Shown here piece by piece: positions 314 to 19,660 of a stretch of DNA of 21,939 bases. The position numbers were made by a program, and so were the translations under genes. This DNA is from a virus, in IMG/VR virus record IMGVR_UViG_3300012022_000006, positions 1 through 21,939 of that record; one strand, 5' to 3'. The notes below the pieces were generated by a model. The model searched no databases. It saw only the letters and a program-made list of their open reading frames with translations, and was not told the origin of the DNA. The first letter of the stretch is position 1, and every line of letters starts with the position of its first letter.

Positions 314-771
314 TGCTCATCAACACCGACTCCATCGCAGAAGCACTAAACATGCGCCCTATCGGTATCTTGGAAATCGATACCGAAGGCGCTACTGAAG
401 GATGGGGCGGCGGTCGCGGCGAATTCAACGCGTTCTTCGGCAAGAAGCATACCGAAGAGACCAAACAGACAATTCGCGAAGCAAAGACAGGCTCATCTCA
501 CCGTCCTGCGACAAAAGAAAAGATGAGCAAGACCCGTATCGGGCGGTCTCATTCGGAGTCGCACAAGAAGAGCATCAGCGAATCACGTAAGGGCATGGTC
601 TTCACAACCGAGCATCGTGAAAATCTACGCAGGTCGCATCTAGGAAACAAGAACTCCGAAGAGACGTGCAAGAAAATCTCCGCCGCTCTGAATGGTCGAA
701 AGCTAACCGATGCCCACCGAGCAGCCATCAGGGCTGCATGGGCAAAGCGCAAGGAAAGTTCCAGTGCTTGA
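313..771 (+). CDS. NUMOD3-repeat protein, homing-endonuclease relative without a visible nuclease domain
   Basis: This 152-aa protein is built mostly of short repeated helix-turn modules of the NUMOD3 (nuclease-associated modular domain 3) kind. They run from about residue 41 (FFGKKHTEETKQTIREAKTG) through at least five more degenerate units, ending in LTDAHRAAIRAAW. NUMOD3 units normally sit beside GIY-YIG or HNH nuclease domains in homing endonucleases, where they contact DNA. Here the first 40 residues show no GIY-YIG or HNH motif, so it is probably a solo DNA-binding protein or the remnant of a mobile endonuclease. The ATG overlaps the upstream stop (TAATG). The 3' end supplies the ribosome binding site of the next gene and overlaps its GTG start. 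It uses AAA, ACA and other A-rich codons more than its neighbours, consistent with acquisition by transfer. Confidence 0.75.
   Translation: MLINTDSIAEALNMRPIGILEIDTEGATEGWGGGRGEFNAFFGKKHTEETKQTIREAKTGSSHRPATKEKMSKTRIGRSHSESHKKSISESRKGMVFTTEHRENLRRSHLGNKNSEETCKKISAALNGRKLTDAHRAAIRAAWAKRKESSSA
751..758 (+). promoter_or_regulatory. Ribosome binding site that fixes the GTG start at 764
   Basis: AAGGAAAG lies about 8 bases before GTG 764, inside the last codons of the NUMOD3 gene. It argues for the GTG start over the ATG at 710, which has no comparable site and would add 18 residues unlike the conserved family N-terminus. Confidence 0.7.
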
Positions 772-3700
772 CAAATACATCTCGCCGTACATCGCCTCGC
801 AGTTCCCTCGCTTCTACCGCGAAGAAGGTCCAACCTTCATCCAGTTCGTGAAGGCGTACTACGAGTGGATGGAAGAGGAAGGTCAGGTGCTCCTGGAGTC
901 CAGGAGCCTTGGCGAGTACCGCGACATCGACACGACCACCGAAGCGTTCTTGGATCACTTCAAGAACAAGTACATGGTCGGTCTCCCGGAGAATGTGCTT
1001 GGTGACAAGCGCACGCTGCAGAAGCACATCAAGGAAATCTACTCGTCGAAGGGTACGGCTCAGGGTCTCGAACTGCTGTTCCGTCTGCTGTACAACGAGT
1101 CCTCCGAGATCTATCTGCCTGGCGACGACATCCTGCGCCCCTCGGACGGCATCTGGGTACAGCCAGTGTACCTGGAAGTGTCGGTCAATCCTTACAACGT
1201 CCTGCTCATCGGCGAACAGATCACGGGTCGAGAGACCGGTGCGACTGCGATCGTCGAGGATTTCCAGGTTCGTTACATCAACAAGCGTCAGATCAACGTG
1301 CTGTTCCTGTCGAACGTGCGCGGCGACTTCAAGACGAACGAGATCATCCTCTCGAAGGTCATCAGCGACCCGCTCGCTTCCCCTTCGGTCATCGGCTCCA
1401 TGTCCAACATCCTGATCAATGAGTCCGGTTTCGGATTCAAGGTCGGCGACACTCTGGAAGTCGGCGACGGCGCAGGTCAGTTCGGCAAGGCGGTGGTGGC
1501 TTCTGTCAGCCCGCGTAACGGCGCGGTCACGTTCAGCATCGAACACGGTGGCTCCGGCTACGCGAACAACAACGTCTGGGCACCGAACGACATCCGTGTC
1601 ACGGCGGTTGACCCCGACAACCCCGACAACCCTGGCATCGGCGCAGACTTCGAGATCGGCGAAATCGTCGACACCGAAGTCATTGTCACAGCGGTGGACC
1701 AGATTGCTCCATACGCGAACACCCAGCTGAACTCGCCCGACTACCAGTTCACCGCACATGTCGGTCAGCCGGAGAACATCAACACAGCGCTGAACCAGGC
1801 ACTCAACGTTCAGAACATCACTGTCGGTACCATCAAGTCGCTGCGCGCCATCAACCCAGGTGCGGGCTACAACGGTCCGGTATACGTCAGCGTCGACAAC
1901 CCGGTCATCTCTGGTCTGATGATCGAGGATCCGCAGAACGGCAACTACAAGGGCAACAACGCCATTGTGGAAGGTCGCGCGTCGGCAGGCAACGGCGCCA
2001 TCAACACTGTCAAGATCATCAACTCTGGCATCGGCTACGCCAATGGTGACGTGATCACGCTGACCAACCCGAACGTCCCATTCGTGGCGACGGGCGCGGT
2101 CCTGCTCGAGAAGCAGGGTACGGGCGAAGGCTACTGGAAGAACACTCGCTCGTTCCTGAACAGCGACAAGTACATCCAAGACTCGTTCTACTACCAGGAA
2201 TACAGCTACGAGACCCGTCTGTCGGTCGCGTTCAACTACTACTCCGACCTCCTGCAGAAGCTGTGGCACCCATCTGGTACACAGGGCTTCAGCAAGGTCG
2301 TTGTCACGAACGTTGCGGACAGTGGTTCCGAAGCGGTGGAAGTCGACATCGTCGCTACCCGCATCACGCAGTACATGACGCAGTTCAGCACCTACGTCCA
2401 GACGACTCGTGCAACCACGACCACGTTCGGAACCGAGTACGCAACCGCGTACAAGACTCTGCGCCCAACGCTCACGTCTCGTACGACCTATGCGGACTAC
2501 CTGGTCAACCAGCCAAACCTCGTGATCAACGGTCAGTTCCCGTACGACGCCAGCAGCTGGCAGGCGCGCGGCAACACCGTCATGGCATGGGACGGAACTG
2601 GCCAGCGCCTGCGCGTCGAACGTGCCAACGGCATCGGTTCCGTCATGCAGGTCATTCCTGTCTCGGCAGGACAGTCCTATCAGCTTGAGTGGGCACACTC
2701 GAACGCGTCGAACGGTACCAACGTATTCGTCGCGTCGTCGAACACCGTCAGTGGCGCGAACCTCATCGCGAACTCGGTCAACTTCACCGGGGCAAGCAAC
2801 ACAGGTATTCTGCGCTTCCAGGCGACGACGAACAACGCGTTCGTGATCATCAACGTTCTTGGTGGCACCGGCAACGTCGCGTTCATCGATGACGTGGTGC
2901 TGCGCAGTGTTCCGACTCTGGAACGCCAGACCGAGTTCGTCACCGTCTTCAATCGTGACACCGCCTACAACAACGGTTCGCGCCAGACTACGTTCAACAC
3001 GACGACTACGTTCAACACGACCTACAACACCGTGTACAACACGGTCTTCGACAGCTACCCAACGAAGATCACTGAGTTCCTGACTCAACTGTACACCACG
3101 TCGACGTACTCTGCGACTCGCATCACCAACCGCGACACGACGACTTCGTACAGCACCTGGTTCAACACGCAGCGCCTGACCAGCACTGTGACGACCACTG
3201 CTTACCTGACGGCGTTTGCGACCAACCGTGCTACTCTGACCGAGTACACGACGACGTTCAACACCACGTACGCAACCAACCGTGCGACGACCACAACGTT
3301 CAACACCACCTACGACACCGTCTTCAACACCTCGTACGCTACGACCACCGCGTACCTGACGACTGTTGGCGCGATCGTACAGACCAACCGTGCGACGACC
3401 ACGACCTTCGACACGAGTCGAGTGACTCTGACGACGTTCGACACCAGCCGCGCTACCGCAACTGTGCGTAGCACGAACCGTGCAACGACCACCGCGTACC
3501 AGTCGTCTGTACAGACGAGCCGCGTGACGGAGACTAGCCGAAACACCACGTTCGGCACAACCTTCAACACGCAGTGGCAGTCAACTGGTGTGATCTACTA
3601 CAATACCACGTATCAGACCCTCACCTACATCGGATTCCTGACGTACACTGGCGGTCGAGATTGGTATACTGGCTTCGACGCCTACACTTCGGTGACCAGG

Positions 3701-4558
3701 CAGACGTTCCGTTACTCGACGGCTACTCTGAATCGTCAGACTTCGCGCGACACCTCGCGAATCACTGGCTTCGGAACAACGACCACGTTCGGTACTCTGT
3801 ACGACGTCAGCCGTGCGACTACCACTGTCTTCAACACGACGTTCAACACGACGACTGTATTTGCAACCAACCGCGATACGACTACCGTGTTCGCAACCAA
3901 CCGTGCCACCGACACCGTGTTCAACACTGACGGTACGAGTCAGCAGCAGACGACGCGTGCAACCGACACGTTCCGTTCGACGAATCGTTCTACGACCGCA
4001 TCGACCAGCCGCGTCACGACCACCGTGTTTGACAAGACTGTTGCGACGGACCGCCTGACGACTCGTTCGACCACCACCGTGTTCGACACCAGCCGAACCA
4101 CCGCGATCAACACCATCACCGTGTACTACACGAACTTCGACACCTCGTCGATCACCTCGCGTATCACCAACACGGGTTACACCACGGTGTTCTTGACCTC
4201 GGCGATTCGACTGACGGACGTTGTGACCAACCGCGCAACTCTGACCTCGGTTCCGACCCCGGTCTCGCGCAGCACCAGCCGTTCAACCGTTCGTTCGACC
4301 AACCGCGCAACTGCAACATCGCGCGTCACTGCTCTGAACACCGTCATCGCAACGTCGGTACAGCGTGACACCAACCGTCTGACCGTGTTCGTGGCTTACC
4401 CGACTTCGTTCATCACGTACTACAACACGCTGACCGAAATCAACACGGACTACCAGACTGTGCGTCAGACTACTCGTCAGACCAACACTGTGTACGATAC
4501 TGCGTACCCAACCGAGCGCCAGACCTCCGTCTTGACTCAGACAGATGTCGCCGACTAA
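764..4558 (+). CDS. Giant baseplate/tail structural protein in the gene 7 position, with Thr-rich repeat C-terminal half
   Basis: With the GTG start this is a 1264-aa protein. Residues 1-130 (DKYISPYIASQFPRF ... LLFRLLYNESSEIYLPGDDI) match a conserved N-terminal domain of virion proteins found beside gp6 and gp8 in cyanophage-like T4 relatives. Residues 210-450 contain repeated Gly-x-Gly-Tyr/Phe beta modules such as GGSGYANN and SGIGYANGD. Residues 455-510 carry a second conserved block, GYWKNTRSFLNSDKYIQDSF. From about residue 530 to the end the chain is dominated by Thr, Arg, Asn and Phe in about 10-residue repeats (NRATTTTFNT type), interrupted at residues 585-717 by a carbohydrate-binding-like jelly-roll domain. 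It lies between gp6-like and gp8-like genes, so it is the positional counterpart of T4 gp7, the wedge protein that starts assembly. Homology to gp7 itself is not evident. The repeat half probably forms an extended fibre or shell. Confidence 0.7.
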   Translation: MLDKYISPYIASQFPRFYREEGPTFIQFVKAYYEWMEEEGQVLLESRSLGEYRDIDTTTEAFLDHFKNKYMVGLPENVLGDKRTLQKHIKEIYSSKGTAQGLELLFRLLYNESSEIYLPGDDILRPSDGIWVQPVYLEVSVNPYNVLLIGEQITGRETGATAIVEDFQVRYINKRQINVLFLSNVRGDFKTNEIILSKVISDPLASPSVIGSMSNILINESGFGFKVGDTLEVGDGAGQFGKAVVASVSPRNGAVTFSIEHGGSGYANNNVWAPNDIRVTAVDPDNPDNPGIGADFEIGEIVDTEVIVTAVDQIAPYANTQLNSPDYQFTAHVGQPENINTALNQALNVQNITVGTIKSLRAINPGAGYNGPVYVSVDNPVISGLMIEDPQNGNYKGNNAIVEGRASAGNGAINTVKIINSGIGYANGDVITLTNPNVPFVATGAVLLEKQGTGEGYWKNTRSFLNSDKYIQDSFYYQEYSYETRLSVAFNYYSDLLQKLWHPSGTQGFSKVVVTNVADSGSEAVEVDIVATRITQYMTQFSTYVQTTRATTTTFGTEYATAYKTLRPTLTSRTTYADYLVNQPNLVINGQFPYDASSWQARGNTVMAWDGTGQRLRVERANGIGSVMQVIPVSAGQSYQLEWAHSNASNGTNVFVASSNTVSGANLIANSVNFTGASNTGILRFQATTNNAFVIINVLGGTGNVAFIDDVVLRSVPTLERQTEFVTVFNRDTAYNNGSRQTTFNTTTTFNTTYNTVYNTVFDSYPTKITEFLTQLYTTSTYSATRITNRDTTTSYSTWFNTQRLTSTVTTTAYLTAFATNRATLTEYTTTFNTTYATNRATTTTFNTTYDTVFNTSYATTTAYLTTVGAIVQTNRATTTTFDTSRVTLTTFDTSRATATVRSTNRATTTAYQSSVQTSRVTETSRNTTFGTTFNTQWQSTGVIYYNTTYQTLTYIGFLTYTGGRDWYTGFDAYTSVTRQTFRYSTATLNRQTSRDTSRITGFGTTTTFGTLYDVSRATTTVFNTTFNTTTVFATNRDTTTVFATNRATDTVFNTDGTSQQQTTRATDTFRSTNRSTTASTSRVTTTVFDKTVATDRLTTRSTTTVFDTSRTTAINTITVYYTNFDTSSITSRITNTGYTTVFLTSAIRLTDVVTNRATLTSVPTPVSRSTSRSTVRSTNRATATSRVTALNTVIATSVQRDTNRLTVFVAYPTSFITYYNTLTEINTDYQTVRQTTRQTNTVYDTAYPTERQTSVLTQTDVAD
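2355..4555 (+). repeat. Thr/Arg/Asn/Phe-rich degenerate coding repeat (about 10-aa unit)
   Basis: The encoded residues follow a degenerate unit of the type T-[N/S]-R-[A/V/D]-T-x-T-x-[F/Y]-x. Clear runs at exact 10-residue spacing include TSRVTLTTFD followed by TSRATATVRS, and TTVFATNRD followed by TTTVFATNRA. More than 30 R-x-T units can be counted. Lys and Glu are almost absent and no Cys is seen, while Thr recurs at alternate positions as in beta strands. At DNA level, stretches such as aaccgtgcgacgaccac recur, but codons vary, so the repeat is old or held at protein level. The array is split by an unrelated domain at 2516-2914. Confidence 0.85.
2516..2914 (+). other. Carbohydrate-binding-like (CBM4_9/galactose-binding type) domain inside the Thr-rich protein
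   Basis: Residues 585-717 of the gene 7-position protein read as a single jelly-roll-type domain. It starts with NLVINGQF, then has a Trp/Gly segment, VSAGQSYQLEW in the middle and VAFIDDVVLRS at the end. That opening and closing pattern is typical of CBM4_9-like modules that bind polysaccharide. It is bordered on both sides by Thr-rich repeat, so it looks inserted into or between repeat blocks. Function in host-glycan recognition is inferred. Confidence 0.6.
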
Positions 4559-4592: not shown

Positions 4593-6320
4593 ATGTCTAC
4601 GATTCTAGCCAAGTTCAAGCAGAACATCACCGACGACTTCATCAGCTCGCTCGACAGCCCCGTCCGCGAGCTGGTGATCGAGGCGCAGGGCGCAGGATAC
4701 GCCAACGGCGACACCATCGTCTTCACGGGCGATGGTGAAGCTGCATCCGGCAAGGTCTGGACCGACGCGCAGGGTCGTGTCACCTATACTTCCATCACGG
4801 AAGGTGGGCGATACGTCACCCTGCCGAACGTCAGCATCACCACTGCCAACGGCTTCGGTGCTGTCATCACTCCAAAGATCGAGAACGATCACTTCTACCT
4901 GTACGCCGGGCGCTCGAAGCCATTCGACGCCGAGCCTGCACGCGATCCGAACTACGAGAACGACTACGACTCGTTCTTCTTCCAGTACGAGCAGATGCTG
5001 TACGGCAAGAAGATCTCCAACACCGACGTTGCCTACATGGCACGCGTCGTTGAGTGGAAGGCGAATACGGTGTTCGTTGAGTACGACGACAAGGATCGCC
5101 AGCTGCCGGAGAAGGACTTCTACGTCCTGACCACCGACAACCATGTCTTCAAGTGCATCACGAACAATAGCGGCGCACCGTCGCTGATTGAGCCTGCCAA
5201 CACCCAGCCAACCGGTCTGCCGACTCAGCTCGCAGACGGCTACCGCTGGAAGTACCTGTACAGCATCACTGGCCAGGACAACACCAAGTTCAAGACCCCT
5301 TCGTTCATGCCGGTCAAGGCGAATGCCAACGTGGCTGAGAGCGCGATCGACGGCGGTGTCCTGAACATCAAGGTCGAAGCAGGCGGCACCAACTACCCTG
5401 CATTCAGCGGTCAGGTCTCGAGCACCCAGGGCGGCAACATCATCGTTCTGCCGAGCGACGCTTCGTCTGTTCCGAACTTCTACGCCAACTGCACCGTGAC
5501 AGTGTTCGGTGCAGGCAACGCCGTCACCAACCGTCGCATTCTGTCGTCGGGTGTACAGGGCAACAACAAGATCATCACGGTCGCGTCCAACTTCAATGCC
5601 AACCAGGTCAACGACGGCTACCAGTTCAGCATCGCGCCGAGCTTGGTTGTGACGGGAGACGGTTCTGGTTTCGAGGGCTTCCTGAAGATGAACGCCACAA
5701 ACCGTTCGGTGATCGGCGTCGAGATCGTTGATCCGGGCAGCAACTACCACCAGGCAACTGCGGTGGCGATCGCTGGTACCGGCTTCGGATCAGGCGCCAA
5801 GCTGCGCGCTGTCATCGCACCTCGTGGCGGTCACGGTTCAGATGTCTATGGCGAGCTGTACTGCAAGCACATGGGCATCTCTGGCGAATTCGCCAACACG
5901 CTGGGCTTCCCGGTCGATGTCACGATCCGTACAGTCGGCATCCTGAAGAACCCACAGTTCGCGAACGGCGCTCCGTACACGACGTTCAAGTTCAACCAGA
6001 CCGTCACGATGTCAACTGCGAACACGTCCAACCGACTGTTCACGCCGGGCGAAACCATCATCGGTAACGCCTCGCAGGCACGCGGTCAGGTGGCTTTCTG
6101 CAACACGAGCCAGACGATCATCACCGGCTACATCGGCACCTTCATCCCCGGCGAAGTGGCAACGGGTCAGACTTCCAATGCGCAGCTTACGATCAATGCG
6201 CTAAATAACACAGCTGACTTGAAGATGTACTCGGGCGACGTAGTCTACCTGCAGAACATCTCGCCTACCCCGCGCAACAAGACTTCGTCTGAGCAGATCA
6301 AGCTCATCATCAAATTGTAA
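4593..6320 (+). CDS. 8: Baseplate wedge protein, gp8-like
   Basis: This 575-aa protein shows hallmarks of the gp8 baseplate wedge family of cyanophage-like T4 relatives. These are HFYLYAGRSKPF at residues 100-111, FYVLTTDNHVFKCITNN at about 176-192, DGYRWKYLYSI at 215-225, a FMPV segment near 238, and the signature APRGGHGSD at 409-417. In T4, gp8 dimers form part of each wedge with gp6, gp7, gp10 and gp53. The protein is longer than T4 gp8 (334 aa). Extra length comes from an N-terminal beta module at about 25-97 (GAGYANGDT type, the same style as in the upstream giant protein) and an extension after residue 450. The Shine-Dalgarno signal before ATG 4593 is weak, and a late-promoter box lies just upstream. 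The family call is from remembered motifs. Confidence 0.75.
   Translation: MSTILAKFKQNITDDFISSLDSPVRELVIEAQGAGYANGDTIVFTGDGEAASGKVWTDAQGRVTYTSITEGGRYVTLPNVSITTANGFGAVITPKIENDHFYLYAGRSKPFDAEPARDPNYENDYDSFFFQYEQMLYGKKISNTDVAYMARVVEWKANTVFVEYDDKDRQLPEKDFYVLTTDNHVFKCITNNSGAPSLIEPANTQPTGLPTQLADGYRWKYLYSITGQDNTKFKTPSFMPVKANANVAESAIDGGVLNIKVEAGGTNYPAFSGQVSSTQGGNIIVLPSDASSVPNFYANCTVTVFGAGNAVTNRRILSSGVQGNNKIITVASNFNANQVNDGYQFSIAPSLVVTGDGSGFEGFLKMNATNRSVIGVEIVDPGSNYHQATAVAIAGTGFGSGAKLRAVIAPRGGHGSDVYGELYCKHMGISGEFANTLGFPVDVTIRTVGILKNPQFANGAPYTTFKFNQTVTMSTANTSNRLFTPGETIIGNASQARGQVAFCNTSQTIITGYIGTFIPGEVATGQTSNAQLTINALNNTADLKMYSGDVVYLQNISPTPRNKTSSEQIKLIIKL
6201..6207 (+). promoter_or_regulatory. Putative T4-type late promoter inside the gp8-like gene
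   Basis: CTAAATA lies near the 3' end of the gp8-like gene, about 125 bases before the start of the DUF4815 gene, and may serve it. It is intragenic, so it is less certain than the intergenic copies. Confidence 0.4.
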
Positions 6321-9300: not shown

Positions 9301-11719
9301 CGTGGTTGTGGAAGGTGTTCCGAGCCTGTCTCCGCGCACTCCGAAGTATCCGACGGAATCGCTGGCGATCGCCAACATCGACGTCCCAGCATACCCTTCG
9401 TTGACCGACAACGAGCGTGCAGACACTGGTCTGGCTGAAGCGATCAAGATCGCGATCCAGAACAACAAGCGTTTCACGATGAAGGACATCTCTGCTCTCG
9501 AGCAGCGTATCTCCCGTCTGGAATACTACACCTCGCTGAACGCACTGGAACAGTCGGCTACCGACATGAAGGTGATCGGCTCGGGCGGTCTGGACCGCTT
9601 CAAGAACGGTATCTTCGTCGATGCCCTGAACAACCACGCGTTCGGTCGCGTCGAGAGCAACGAATACCGCGTCGCTGTTGACGAGAAGAACGGTTTCGCC
9701 CGTCCATTCTTCCAGCCGGAGTTCTTCGACCTGGAGTTTGACGCGGCTGCTTCGAGCGGTGTTGTGAAGAACGGCGACGTTCTGACCACCACCTTCACCG
9801 AAGAACTGTTCCTGGACCAGAACTTCGCAACCGACAGCCGTTCGCTGTCTGGCGCGCCGCCGTCCTACAATGGTACGCTGGTTCTGACTCCGAACCGCTG
9901 GTCCGACGTTGAGATCATGGCGAAGCCAGTCTCCGTCAACGCAACCGACAAGGCTTCCGCGTCGCTGCGTGACATGACCGCGCCGGTTCTGTGTGCTCAG
10001 TACGGTTGGTGGCGTACCGACAAGGGCGTCAACGACCTGGCCAACTCGGTCGATCAGGCAGTCGAAAGTCTGCGTGACAAGACCAACCTCAGCACCGAAA
10101 CCACCTACACCGTGGACGATGGTACTCAGCAGTCGGTCACCGTTCAGCCGTTCATCCGTGCGCGCGAAATCGCGTTCCAGGCATTCGGTCTGAAGCCGTA
10201 CACCAAGTTCTACGCTTACATCGACGACGCTGATGCTTCGGATCTGTTCGCCCCAGGCGACGTGGTCAACACCAACGCCACCGATGACAGCGCAGTGATT
10301 CGTACCCACATCTGGGGAACCGCGCTGGAGTCCAACTCCCGTGGTGAACTGGAAGGCAAGATCACCATTCCGGGCTTCCGCTACAAGGCTGGTCGTCACA
10401 CCGTTAAGCTGCTGTCTCAGGGCATCGACGCGATCACCACGCAGCAGGTCTCCTCGGCAGCCGCGATCTTCGAAGGTGAGATCATCTACAAGGATCCGCC
10501 GCCACCGATCGTCATCATCGTCGACGTGAAGCCAGAACCGAAGGAAACTCCGGTTGCCAAGTTCACGAAGTCGGGTGACATCTACGTCACCTCGCCAGCG
10601 CAGCACTCGATCAAGTTCACCGACGCTTCTGTGAAGGGAACTGGAACGATCACTGACTGGTCGTGGGACTTCGGTGACGGTCAGACCTACAATGGTCAGA
10701 ACCCACCGGCTCACACCTACGCTGTCGGCGATTCGGCTCAGGCATTCAACGTGCGCCTGACTGTCACCGACTCCTACAACCTGAAGTCGTCGTACAGCGA
10801 AGTTATCACGCTGTTCAAGCTGCAGCCTGCTCCGCCGCCGCCACCTCCGGCTCCGCCAGCTCCATCGGCGACGCTGTACATCCAGTCGTACTCCAACGGT
10901 AGCCCAACGGGTTCCGGTGAAGCTTCTGGCGTTGGTAGCTCGGATTCGGCTCACGTTGCGACTCCTTCTACCACCTACACGGGAGCGTTCTTCGAGTGGG
11001 TTGTCAGCGTGAACTCCGGTCCTCCTCTGACCACCATCGTCGTTGGCAACAACGGTTCCGTGGACGGTCAGGCGAACAACCGACTGGGCATGAGCCTGTA
11101 CGGACCTAACCGTTCGACGGCGCTCAACTCGGCGATGACGGTCACCTGTCGTTATAAATACGCCAATGGTTACATCATCGGCACTTCGTCGTACAACTTC
11201 CGTCACAACACCACAGTCGTTGTGACCACTCCGCCGGCATCGGGTGGTGGTTACGTTGGTGGAGGCGGCGGTTGCGTCCAGGTCGATCAGCTGATGGCTG
11301 ACGGTCTGCGTGCTGGTGACGTACAGGTCGGCATGAAGTACATCTCCATCGTTCCAGGCGAAGCGCCACGACTGACTCCGGTCCTCGAAGCGCCAGCTCC
11401 GTTCTTCCGCCCTTGCGTCCGTATCGTCACCGAGTCCGGCGCATCCCTGATCCTGTCGGCAGCTACGCAGTTCAACCTGCCGGGCGCGCTGATGGATCTG
11501 GAAGAGGGTCACTGGCGCCATGCTTCCGACATGCTCGGCGAGCTGGTTCTGGTTGAGGACGACGAAGGTCAGCGTTGGGAGATGGTTACCCGTGTTGATG
11601 ACGTTGGTTCGATGGAAGTCATTCCTCTTGGTTTCGGCGGGCGCTCGTTCGCGGCTGGTGAGAGGGCTAATGTCCGCATCTACAGCCACAACCGCATGTT
11701 TGCTACTGAGAAATTCTAA
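6332..11719 (+). CDS. DUF4815-type virion structural protein with PKD, poly-Pro, Ig-like and Hint-like C-terminal modules
   Basis: The N-terminus of this 1795-aa protein (PPYFDDFNEDKRFHRILF, then VQARELTQLQTILQNQIERF) is the hallmark of DUF4815 phage structural proteins, present in cyanophage-type tails. A central conserved region includes MKDISALEQRISRLEYYTS and LDRFKNGIFVDALNNHAFG. The C-terminal part is modular. A PKD domain spans about 1407-1495 (WSWDFGDG at 1443-1450), followed by a proline linker (PAPPPPPPAPPAPS), an Ig-like domain at about 1513-1630, a Gly-rich hinge (GGGYVGGGGG), and a Hint-like domain from Cys1648 to His1786-Asn1787 close to the C-terminus. AGGA six bases upstream supports ATG 6332. 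It is probably a tail or baseplate-periphery protein carrying surface-exposed adhesion modules. The Hint-like call is less sure than the DUF4815 and PKD calls. Confidence 0.8.
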   Translation: MSSLETNLNVPPYFDDFNEDKRFHRILFRPAVAVQARELTQLQTILQNQIERFGNHIFKDGSVVQGCSVEYITDLEYIGVEDQFLDDTDLSVNDDNLIGAIAVGQTSDVQALIVASRAGFIRQNPGCFFIRYNKPGINGQRTFLPGETIRLYGEDSSYVENIILKVDDAAPFNAYKTLTVDAIQVGNPANVTARAIISDVDTVNNTVTVNNVRRRFSAGDVLLVSSNNSVNAAISSVNYDLSNEIGSIRTLTANTDGIAIETDEMSGFAYGAHVSDGIVYHKGNFIKVVPHNVIVNEKSSNPAGYLLGFETAEEIITETADESLNDNALGYSNANAPGAHRLKLTSTVVSKAANSVSNTDIFFPIVEFSNTGAVFERTDPEYAMLGDEMAKRTYEESGHYVIKPFAVSSNTDAGDTQSLIYDVSPGLAYVKGERTELLTNLPVKGRRGTDTVSYNEQIVSMNYGNYIEVNEVRGSFLSSGVAVQLRSAVQQAVTTNRTTASSPAGTVIGNAIVSDIVYVSGIKGSASAVYRLYLSNIQMNSGSSFTQVRSILRLINSTYQYSDVILTGGVAVLKETSYAPLIFDLGAPSVKTLKNANNVADTNYYYQTTNGTCTLEAAGTVNFRLPSGGGILGFTDGSNASKARVSLVTTANALSAVLTTAATTYANGVIAATGLGGKFLPGEAVRIGSNTYTVTEILTADQVKVAGTVPASTNQSVQRFHFAGSVIGLDAADRTLTVNANNEATISLGTTYSNAPVATAVQMYALQNQGAEMKKEIKRSTVVIINVANTGTDAGPWNLGLPDVLKVTGVFPAVNTGNGYAVDTNSNYLGDFVLDNGQRDAFYDHASLQLAPQITADMVQGKSYMVSVDHFVANNTTGKGYFSVDSYPVNDALTANVASTIKTYEIPTYFSSARAKTFDLRSVIDFRPYKTATANVTSNVAQATTSPAGSTTFNANTTGFNPYPGQNFECNFTHYLPRKDVLTVTPTGSFVVVEGVPSLSPRTPKYPTESLAIANIDVPAYPSLTDNERADTGLAEAIKIAIQNNKRFTMKDISALEQRISRLEYYTSLNALEQSATDMKVIGSGGLDRFKNGIFVDALNNHAFGRVESNEYRVAVDEKNGFARPFFQPEFFDLEFDAAASSGVVKNGDVLTTTFTEELFLDQNFATDSRSLSGAPPSYNGTLVLTPNRWSDVEIMAKPVSVNATDKASASLRDMTAPVLCAQYGWWRTDKGVNDLANSVDQAVESLRDKTNLSTETTYTVDDGTQQSVTVQPFIRAREIAFQAFGLKPYTKFYAYIDDADASDLFAPGDVVNTNATDDSAVIRTHIWGTALESNSRGELEGKITIPGFRYKAGRHTVKLLSQGIDAITTQQVSSAAAIFEGEIIYKDPPPPIVIIVDVKPEPKETPVAKFTKSGDIYVTSPAQHSIKFTDASVKGTGTITDWSWDFGDGQTYNGQNPPAHTYAVGDSAQAFNVRLTVTDSYNLKSSYSEVITLFKLQPAPPPPPPAPPAPSATLYIQSYSNGSPTGSGEASGVGSSDSAHVATPSTTYTGAFFEWVVSVNSGPPLTTIVVGNNGSVDGQANNRLGMSLYGPNRSTALNSAMTVTCRYKYANGYIIGTSSYNFRHNTTVVVTTPPASGGGYVGGGGGCVQVDQLMADGLRAGDVQVGMKYISIVPGEAPRLTPVLEAPAPFFRPCVRIVTESGASLILSAATQFNLPGALMDLEEGHWRHASDMLGELVLVEDDEGQRWEMVTRVDDVGSMEVIPLGFGGRSFAAGERANVRIYSHNRMFATEKF
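11153..11160 (+). promoter_or_regulatory. Exact T4 late promoter consensus TATAAATA, intragenic
   Basis: This is the only copy of the full T4 consensus box in the window. It lies within the DUF4815 gene, about 570 bases before the next start codon. It encodes Tyr-Lys-Tyr in a GC-rich gene. Whether it is used is unknown. Confidence 0.4.
11273..11692 (+). other. Hint-like (hedgehog/intein fold) domain at the end of the DUF4815 protein
   Basis: Residues 1648-1787 follow a Gly-rich hinge. They begin with Cys (CVQVDQLMADG), continue with PCVRIVTESGASLILSAATQF in the place of Hint block B, then LGELVLVEDDEGQRWEMV and VDDVGSMEVIPL, and end with an IYSHN motif. First Cys, beta-rich middle and terminal His-Asn are the Hint layout. 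The block B position reads T-Q-F-N, so the usual TxxH histidine is missing. The residue after Asn is Arg, not Cys/Ser/Thr, so full protein splicing is unlikely. Confidence 0.55.
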
Positions 11720-18633: not shown

Positions 18634-18804
18634 ATGACCATGCAGATTGACAAGAACGACCCAGTCTCCGTCGAGACGGTCAACCGTAAACTGGAATCGT
18701 TCGTAGAAGTTGTCCTCGAGAAGCTGACCGCGCAGCAAGCGACGATCAAGCAGCTGAAGACCCGCCTCCGCGCCGTAGAGAAGGAGCTGGAACCGGGTGG
18801 CTAA
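18634..18804 (+). CDS. 56-aa coiled-coil protein, unknown function
   Basis: This short gene encodes a 56-residue protein beginning MTMQIDKND and ending EPGG. Residues about 16-52 show a heptad pattern of Leu, Val and Ile (VNRKLESFVEVVLEK, then IKQLKTRLRAVEKEL), so a coiled coil is likely. A good AGGAG lies seven bases before ATG 18634, closer to ideal than for the second ATG at 18640, but it is held in a hairpin with a late promoter in the other arm. The stop overlaps the GTG start of the next gene, and its last codons contain that gene's AAGGAG site. Coding potential is supported by this organisation and by codon use matching the neighbours. I do not recognise it. A small fibre or neck assembly factor, or a regulator, would fit. 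Confidence 0.7.
   Translation: MTMQIDKNDPVSVETVNRKLESFVEVVLEKLTAQQATIKQLKTRLRAVEKELEPGG
18781..18786 (+). promoter_or_regulatory. Ribosome binding site for the GTG-start 287-aa gene
   Basis: AAGGAG lies ten bases before GTG 18797 within the 56-aa gene. It favours GTG 18797 over the ATG seven codons later. Confidence 0.6.
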
Positions 18805-19660
18805 GAAATTCGAGTACATGAGCCAGAACGAGTGGTTGGGCGACGCAACCACTCACTTCATGAAGTCTGGCAGCGCACTACGCAGCCCATCCAATGATCA
18901 AGAGTCACTCGCCAAGTACGTCCCGCGTGAAGCGAACGGCGTCAAGGTCGAGTACGACATCACATTCGAGATTCCGGGCACCGTCAAGGGCTACAAGTTC
19001 AGCGACTTCCTCACCAAGGCACTCTACATCGCTCCGCAGAGTCAGCGCTTCGCAACTGAAGCAGTGACCACGGCGGCGTCGAAGGCGTGCACAGAGGAAG
19101 GTCGTCGCGTGTTCCAGCTGCTGCTCGAGAACATCGAGGACAAGTACATCCTGGACGGCGACGATGACTTCGAGTGCGATGAGATCGTGGTTCTGCCAGG
19201 CACCAACCTGTTGTCGAAAGAGAACGTCGTCGACTTCGACAAGGTCGATGCACTTGTTCGCGGCGGCGCATACGTCAAGATCCACCCGATCACCGAGCGC
19301 ACCTGGGTACAGTACCTGAAGAGCCGCTGGGGTAAGAAGGTCATCCCACCAGAAGCACCGCTCTACCCTATCCTGCGCTCTGCACAGAAGGTCAACTTCA
19401 CCATGTCTTCCGAGACGGGCATCGCAGCGACGATCCTGGGCAAGAAGCTTGGCGTGATCGATCACCCTGAGAAGAAGACTGCGTCCACGTTCCAGCACAT
19501 CTACCAAGGTATGGACCTGGCGCGCAAGAACACCCTCAAGGAAAAGCTGATCGCTGTACTGTCGAACCCGGAGTCAGGCGTCCTGACTACATACCACGAC
19601 GACCCCGTCGAGCGCGTGGGTCGATACTTCGAGTTCATGGTAAGGTATCCGCACAAATGA
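18797..19660 (+). CDS. Conserved-looking enzyme-like protein, possible GT-B-type glycosyltransferase relative
   Basis: This 287-aa soluble protein has no signal peptide or membrane segment. Composition differs from the structural genes: Lys, Glu, His and Cys are frequent and Thr/Asn repeats are absent. Residues about 155-221 (VKIHPITERTWVQYLKSRWG, VIPPEAPLYPILRSAQKV, TMSSETGIAATILGKKLGVI) follow the pattern of the C-terminal half of GT-B-fold sugar or polyol-phosphate transferases: an HP start, a register shift to 'pl..ll..a..v', then SSE...A...GK. This is a fold-level guess. The next gene overlaps by ATGA and also looks enzyme-like, so the pair may act together. It could modify the virion, phage DNA or the host surface. 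It could equally be an unrelated structural or assembly protein. The expected catalytic residues are not secure. Confidence 0.4.
   Translation: MAKKFEYMSQNEWLGDATTHFMKSGSALRSPSNDQESLAKYVPREANGVKVEYDITFEIPGTVKGYKFSDFLTKALYIAPQSQRFATEAVTTAASKACTEEGRRVFQLLLENIEDKYILDGDDDFECDEIVVLPGTNLLSKENVVDFDKVDALVRGGAYVKIHPITERTWVQYLKSRWGKKVIPPEAPLYPILRSAQKVNFTMSSETGIAATILGKKLGVIDHPEKKTASTFQHIYQGMDLARKNTLKEKLIAVLSNPESGVLTTYHDDPVERVGRYFEFMVRYPHK

Follow-up and report, generated by a model that had tools for sequence, protein, structure and literature searches.

A threonine-rich repeat fused to a phage baseplate protein is mirror-complementary and probably forms a very long antiparallel β-hairpin fibre

The window analysed here, a 21,939-bp IMG/VR fragment (IMGVR_UViG_3300012022_000006) from a phage of the T4 superfamily, encodes a baseplate-type protein that continues into a long threonine-rich repeat. 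The question raised by this locus is what such a repeat would form on a phage baseplate. We propose, with a probability of roughly three in four, that this half of the protein zips onto itself: two complementary arms would pair antiparallel into a β-hairpin fibre of great length, with both ends anchored on the baseplate.

The gene order in the window is the end of gp6, an ORF with a NUMOD3 motif, the gene 7-position ORF, a gp8-like gene, a DUF4815/PKD protein gene and more structural genes, followed by phrog_26179, Ad2 and Hc2 connector genes. The gp6 tail ends at 313 and matches the end of gp6 in a related locus, L008, and 4593-6320 encodes a phrog_438 baseplate wedge in the gp8 position. The gene 7-position ORF lies between the two, which is the placement of a gp7-like gene. 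It is intact, spans 710-4558 (1,282 aa) and is open from the ATG at 710, but its true start is likely the GTG at 764 (residue 19), which is preceded by AAGGAAA and gives 1,264 aa. A baseplate-wedge N-terminal region runs to residue 548 and is followed by repeat, insert and repeat. The preliminary description had proposed that the repeat half is fused to a baseplate-type N-terminus, and the profile match of this region to phrog_17744 confirms this. The gp7 homologues of phiM12, Cr30 and RHph_I1_18 (Rhizobium) stop before the repeats; that of phiM12 ends where the repeats of the window begin. The parts of the protein are listed below, the repeat stretches on either side of the mirror centre being called arms.

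764..2353, + strand: gene 7-position baseplate wedge N-terminal region, residues 19-548 (phrog_17744, E 3.8e-179; PF23786 above cut-off)
2354..2500, + strand: arm 1, base part, residues 549-597 (mirror-pairs with the C-terminal ~50 residues in the window, L008 and phage DLP6)
2501..2935, + strand: inserted domain, predicted carbohydrate-binding-like beta-sandwich, residues 598-742, bulging from arm 1 (AF2 and Foldseek)
2936..3625, + strand: arm 1, distal part, residues 743-972 (mirror complement of arm 2)
3626..3685, + strand: tip turn, residues 973-992, around the mirror centre at ~982.5 (unique maximum of the mirror score)
3686..4555, + strand: arm 2, residues 993-1282, back to the base (mirror alignment; the insert faces a phase shift near residue 1235)

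Two further observations concern the neighbouring genes. The NUMOD3-motif ORF (313-771, 152 aa) is homing-endonuclease-like, had no nuclease domain match and lies exactly at the gp6/gp7 junction; the GTG start of gp7 and its ribosome-binding site fall inside the end of this ORF. It is absent from L008, the gp7 of which is 75% identical to the window protein over its whole length and begins right at the gp6 stop, which indicates that the window acquired the NUMOD3 ORF by insertion at this point. The DUF4815/PKD protein ends (11400-11719) in GGGGGC and a Hint-like stretch, which had no Pfam match; this end resembles those of the first ORFs in two of the two-gene loci described below (L029 and L109).

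The repeat (residues 549-600 and 746-1282) consists of 33% Thr and 8% Arg and contains no His. Residues 746-1282, also 33% Thr, contain Lys at 0.4% and Glu at 0.9% and lack Cys, in agreement with the near-absence of these three residues noted earlier. In the autocorrelation of Thr, Arg and the aromatics, the significant lags (4, 10, 14, 18, 20, 24, 28, 32 and 36) are even without exception; no odd lag rises above chance. The repeat quantum is a dyad repeat of four ([R/F/Y]xTx) or six ([R/F/Y]xTxTx) residues. Thus, the degenerate repeat of the preliminary description is real, and lag 10 is significant, but its fixed ten-residue period is not: a ten-residue tandem repeat is ruled out by the even lags and the quanta of four and six. 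A collagen-like fibre was rejected as well (Gly 2.4%, no period of 3 in the autocorrelation). When residues are written two apart, one face shows T alternating with R/F/Y and the other N/S/A/D/T/V. The phase of this alternation is kept for ~200 residues at a stretch, with few phase shifts in 544 residues, and in 39 proteins the bulky residues are mostly spaced 4 or 6 apart, rarely at odd distances. Since tandem repeats in the DNA are weak, the order is kept at the protein level, and its presence in L008 and in Stenotrophomonas phage DLP6, which have the same repeat and layout as the window, shows that it is no assembly artefact.

In many complete members of this group, a non-repeat middle separates two repeat stretches of the same length. 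This suggested a hairpin, and every sequence was therefore compared with its reversed self by a mirror score. In the window protein the mirror is centred on residue 982.5, with a z of 8.5; the runner-up centre reaches 4.7. With the insert removed, the centre is at 291.5 of 592 residues and the complement score is 6.58, whereas 2,000 block shuffles of the repeat gave a mean of 2.80 and a maximum of 4.60. Eight controls, comprising baseplate, Ig-like and other fibre proteins, did not exceed 2.2. The best and second-best centres have z scores of 7.7 and 4.4 in L008, 11.7 and 6.6 in DLP6, and 21.8 and 6.4 in L102 (1,782 aa), where the centre (902.0) all but coincides with the midpoint (901.5). A sharp single centre was present in most intact single-gene members; it was weak or absent in a few ORFs, e.g. 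L054 and L064_9439, and the most repetitive arrays have many near-equal centres.

At mirrored positions, threonines face threonines and cations face aromatics. Ungapped and unfiltered, the window protein has 29 cation-aromatic, no cation-cation and 2 aromatic-aromatic pairs (DLP6: 37, 0 and 1), and a gapped alignment of arm 1 to arm 2 of the window gives 38 cation-aromatic, 59 Thr-Thr, no cation-cation and one aromatic-aromatic pair. The two arms are also of equal length: among 17 complete proteins, arms range from 130 to 867 residues and are correlated at r = 0.9994. Without inserts, the arms of the gp7 fusions measure ~308/300 (window), 301/302 (L008), 326/315 (DLP6) and 536/534 residues (L024). 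Arms taken from unrelated proteins have low cross-scores, high ones being found between homologues or similar highly repetitive arrays. Judged by residue class, the second arm, read backwards, is the complement of the first about one centre, and the alignment shows the register in which the arms would pair. This complementarity had been missed in the preliminary description.

Counted over the in-register stretches of 33 proteins, which include related ones so that the events are not independent, there were 1,557 cation-aromatic, 3 cation-cation and 34 aromatic-aromatic pairs (expected 797, 383 and 414), and Phe stood opposite Thr 32 times (expected 585). Neighbours of the same class are common within a strand, so this cross-strand rule is no by-product of alternation along the strand. 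On the other face, Asn favours Ser opposite (1.7-fold). The arginines had been taken for a charged ladder; this does not hold for a ladder of free charges, as every Arg has a Phe or Tyr across from it on the other arm. In comparisons of homologues, residue class is conserved in 1,720 in-register pairs; in 13 both partners have changed in a way that still obeys the rule, and in 11 a one-sided change breaks it (78 pairs break it in both homologues, and 802 were set aside because their register differs). Hence 13 of the 24 rule-relevant class changes were compensated on both sides. Compensation is commoner than expected from independent change, although the numbers are small; that there are so few such changes reflects the closeness of most of the homologues compared.

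In some loci, two neighbouring repeat ORFs each lack a centre of their own. A genuine hairpin would predict that these are one hairpin cut at its tip, the first ORF being the mirror complement of the second, and this was found. The mirror z of the pairs was 23.3 in L032, 22.7 in L029 and 21.0 in L031, and 12-23 in most pairs; others that are mirror-complementary include L099, L109, L081, L059, L069, L039 and L067. In 13 split pairs we counted 1,026 cation-aromatic against 3 cation-cation and 12 aromatic-aromatic pairs. The N-terminus of the first ORF lies against the C-terminus of the second, with the break at the tip, and parallel pairing scored below mirror pairing in all pairs except L131, where the two ORFs are separate hairpins. 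In several of these loci the first ORF ends in an additional domain:

L092 2699-5119, + strand: S74-like endosialidase chaperone end of first ORF (Pfam match)
L069 7301-9298, - strand: S74-like endosialidase chaperone end of first ORF (Pfam match)
L077 3-1418, + strand: S74-like endosialidase chaperone end of first ORF (similar sequence)
L032 5267-8722, - strand: intein/Hint-like end of first ORF (Pfam, below cut-off)
L029 4623-8258, + strand: intein/Hint-like end of first ORF (similar sequence)

The intein/Hint-like ends in L032 and L029 hint at self-cleavage at the fibre tip. We know of no DNA process that reverses the order of amino acids, which makes selection on the folded protein the likely cause of the mirror.

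Relatives were found by an alignment-based scan and a degenerate DNA pattern search of IMG/VR. The repeat occurs in at least ~130 loci of uncultured phages, with at least 150 distinct ORFs, a handful of which are overlapping frames. Two genomic slots are seen repeatedly. One lies between gp7 and gp8, where the repeat is fused to gp7 (window, L008, DLP6 and L024) or is a gene of its own (L026, L027, L028 and L030). In L026 (4860-11078) and L027 (2721-8840) this gene reads as two successive hairpins, with centres at ~645 and ~1430 in L026. The other slot is directly upstream of a phrog_26179 gene. The window has such a gene at 18797-19660, homologues of which are found directly downstream of the repeat genes in many relatives. 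A tblastn search of 50,697 phage records with the repeat, in which BLAST masks low complexity, matched DLP6 only; queries from other repeat families had no match in these records under the same masking. None of 84,980 bacterial and archaeal genomes contained the DNA pattern, profile searches of Pfam, PHROGs, NCBIfam and PDB sequences with the repeat returned nothing specific, and we found no description of such a repeat in the open-access literature searched.

Structure prediction separated the insert from the arms. AF2 gave a pLDDT of 71-81 over approximately residues 617-728, and Foldseek matched the predicted model to CBM4/16/61 folds (E 9e-6 to 1e-4, TM on target ~0.5-0.65); no Pfam family, including CBM_4_9 and CBM16, matched the insert above cut-off. 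The models thus predict a carbohydrate-binding-like beta-sandwich; an extra insert in L024 matches CBM_4_9, below cut-off. A predicted disordered chain had been named in the preliminary description as an outcome against a fibre. The window arms, modelled as a single chain from a two-sequence alignment, reached a pLDDT of ~20-37. For a small relative, again a single chain with a 7-row alignment, the value was ~24-35 over most arm residues and 74-84 in the tip domain. Foldseek found nothing significant with the latter model. On these models the outcome for the arms is ambiguous and neither favours nor excludes a hairpin.

The mirror could also arise from pairing between two copies of the protein, as a head-to-tail homodimer or a higher-order assembly with the tip domain in the middle of a rod of double length. 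Single-chain members would show the same signal if whole chains dimerised in antiparallel fashion, and pairing between chains does occur in the split systems. There, however, the N-terminus of one chain lies with the C-terminus of the other and the break is at the centre, as in a cut hairpin, and in a gp7 fusion both ends of the rod would need a baseplate. Moreover, the N- and C-terminal segments conserved among small members fit best with a single base module. We therefore regard such a dimer as unlikely.

More improbable still is a beta-solenoid or coil-stacked fold, in which the mirror would be incidental to locally palindromic units. The preliminary description had named a beta-solenoid, beside a trimeric beta fibre, as an example of stacked strands; its reading of the alternating Thr as beta structure would stand, but the pairing is antiparallel about one centre, not coil to coil. 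Thr-rich solenoids exist, and the strong lags 14, 18, 32 and 36 could be coil lengths. Nevertheless, there are several lags and no single period or constant coil length, and local palindromes would give many near-equal centres, while the mirror has a single maximum that extends without gaps over hundreds of residues and exceeds all block shuffles; it also recurs between separate genes and couples the arm lengths. Least credible of all is a disordered or low-complexity linker with mere composition bias. Low AF2 confidence and the scarcity of large hydrophobic residues would fit such a linker, which leaves unexplained the parity over ~200-residue stretches, the complementarity code, the equal arms and the compensatory changes.

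In the preferred hairpin, arm 1 (549-597 and 743-972) would run outward from the gp7-like baseplate protein and turn at ~982, and arm 2 (993-1282) would return to the base paired in register with it, residue i on arm 1 fixing the residue class at c-i on arm 2. The strands would be beta and run along a stiff fibre whose arms, of ~290 residues each, could reach ~95 nm at full extension, with Arg-aromatic pairs probably stacked as cation-pi contacts. In agreement with a hairpin, sequence in the one small family compared varies most at the tip, where identity is 64%, as opposed to 87-100% in the remaining parts. With the carbohydrate-binding-like insert off the base and the tip distal, the fibre may serve host attachment, tip and insert being the putative adhesive parts. 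S74 domains mediate trimerisation and self-cleave, and their presence at the tip end of relatives suggests, by analogy with the T4 gp37 needle, trimers of six strands. T4 gp7 is present in one copy per wedge, and a trimeric needle would therefore be hard to form from a gp7 fusion, which may instead adopt a two-stranded or other assembly. Given the baseplate-wedge N-terminus, a fibre on each wedge, as proposed earlier, is the best reading.

On balance, and with less confidence than in the hairpin itself, we think that phages have evolved an amino-acid code (Thr:Thr and Arg/Lys/His:Phe/Tyr/Trp) by which two arms, each of 130-870 residues and belonging to a single chain or to two adjacent genes, would zip antiparallel in a unique register, length and register being written in the sequence much as in a nucleic-acid duplex. 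To our knowledge, no protein family has two in-register reverse-complement arms over hundreds of residues; such arms were found in none of the libraries searched, and the repeat regions tested match no described family. For a low-complexity protein that otherwise defies prediction, structure would become readable from the sequence, and the code predicts which adjacent phage genes encode partner chains. The fibre tip is a candidate host-binding part, and a programmable protein zipper is suggested.

Among known systems, likeness to the cellular serine-rich NF033849 proteins is limited to a weak match of L055 1656-6071, below cut-off (E 3e-9, score 35 against a cut-off of 650); cellular proteins may use a similar alternation, or the match may reflect composition only. 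S74-like domains were found at the tip end of the first ORF in three split systems; the window protein has none, and no family found is related in sequence to its arms, S74 fibres included. The insert is predicted to share the beta-sandwich fold of CBM4/CBM16 modules, but unlike these it has no Pfam match. With the gp7 proteins of the T4 superfamily (phrog_17744) the window protein shares the position between gp6 and gp8 and a homologous N-terminal region, whereas the phiM12, Cr30 and RHph_I1_18 homologues lack the repeat half. In T4 gp37, up-and-down strands take the chain out to a receptor-binding tip and back. PDB sequence searches revealed no sequence relation to gp37, which coordinates iron through His, a residue lacking in the window arms; the needle of gp37 also differs in length from these arms of ~290 residues (up to 867 in relatives). 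The mirror code found in the window arms is not described for gp37 in the text consulted (PMC6957217), according to which D10 consists of residues 811-881 and 1010-1026 of a trimer, the base being built from both segment ends. The layout proposed here, read from sequence, would be that of the gp37 collar and needle (D10-D11): out and back, with both ends at the base.
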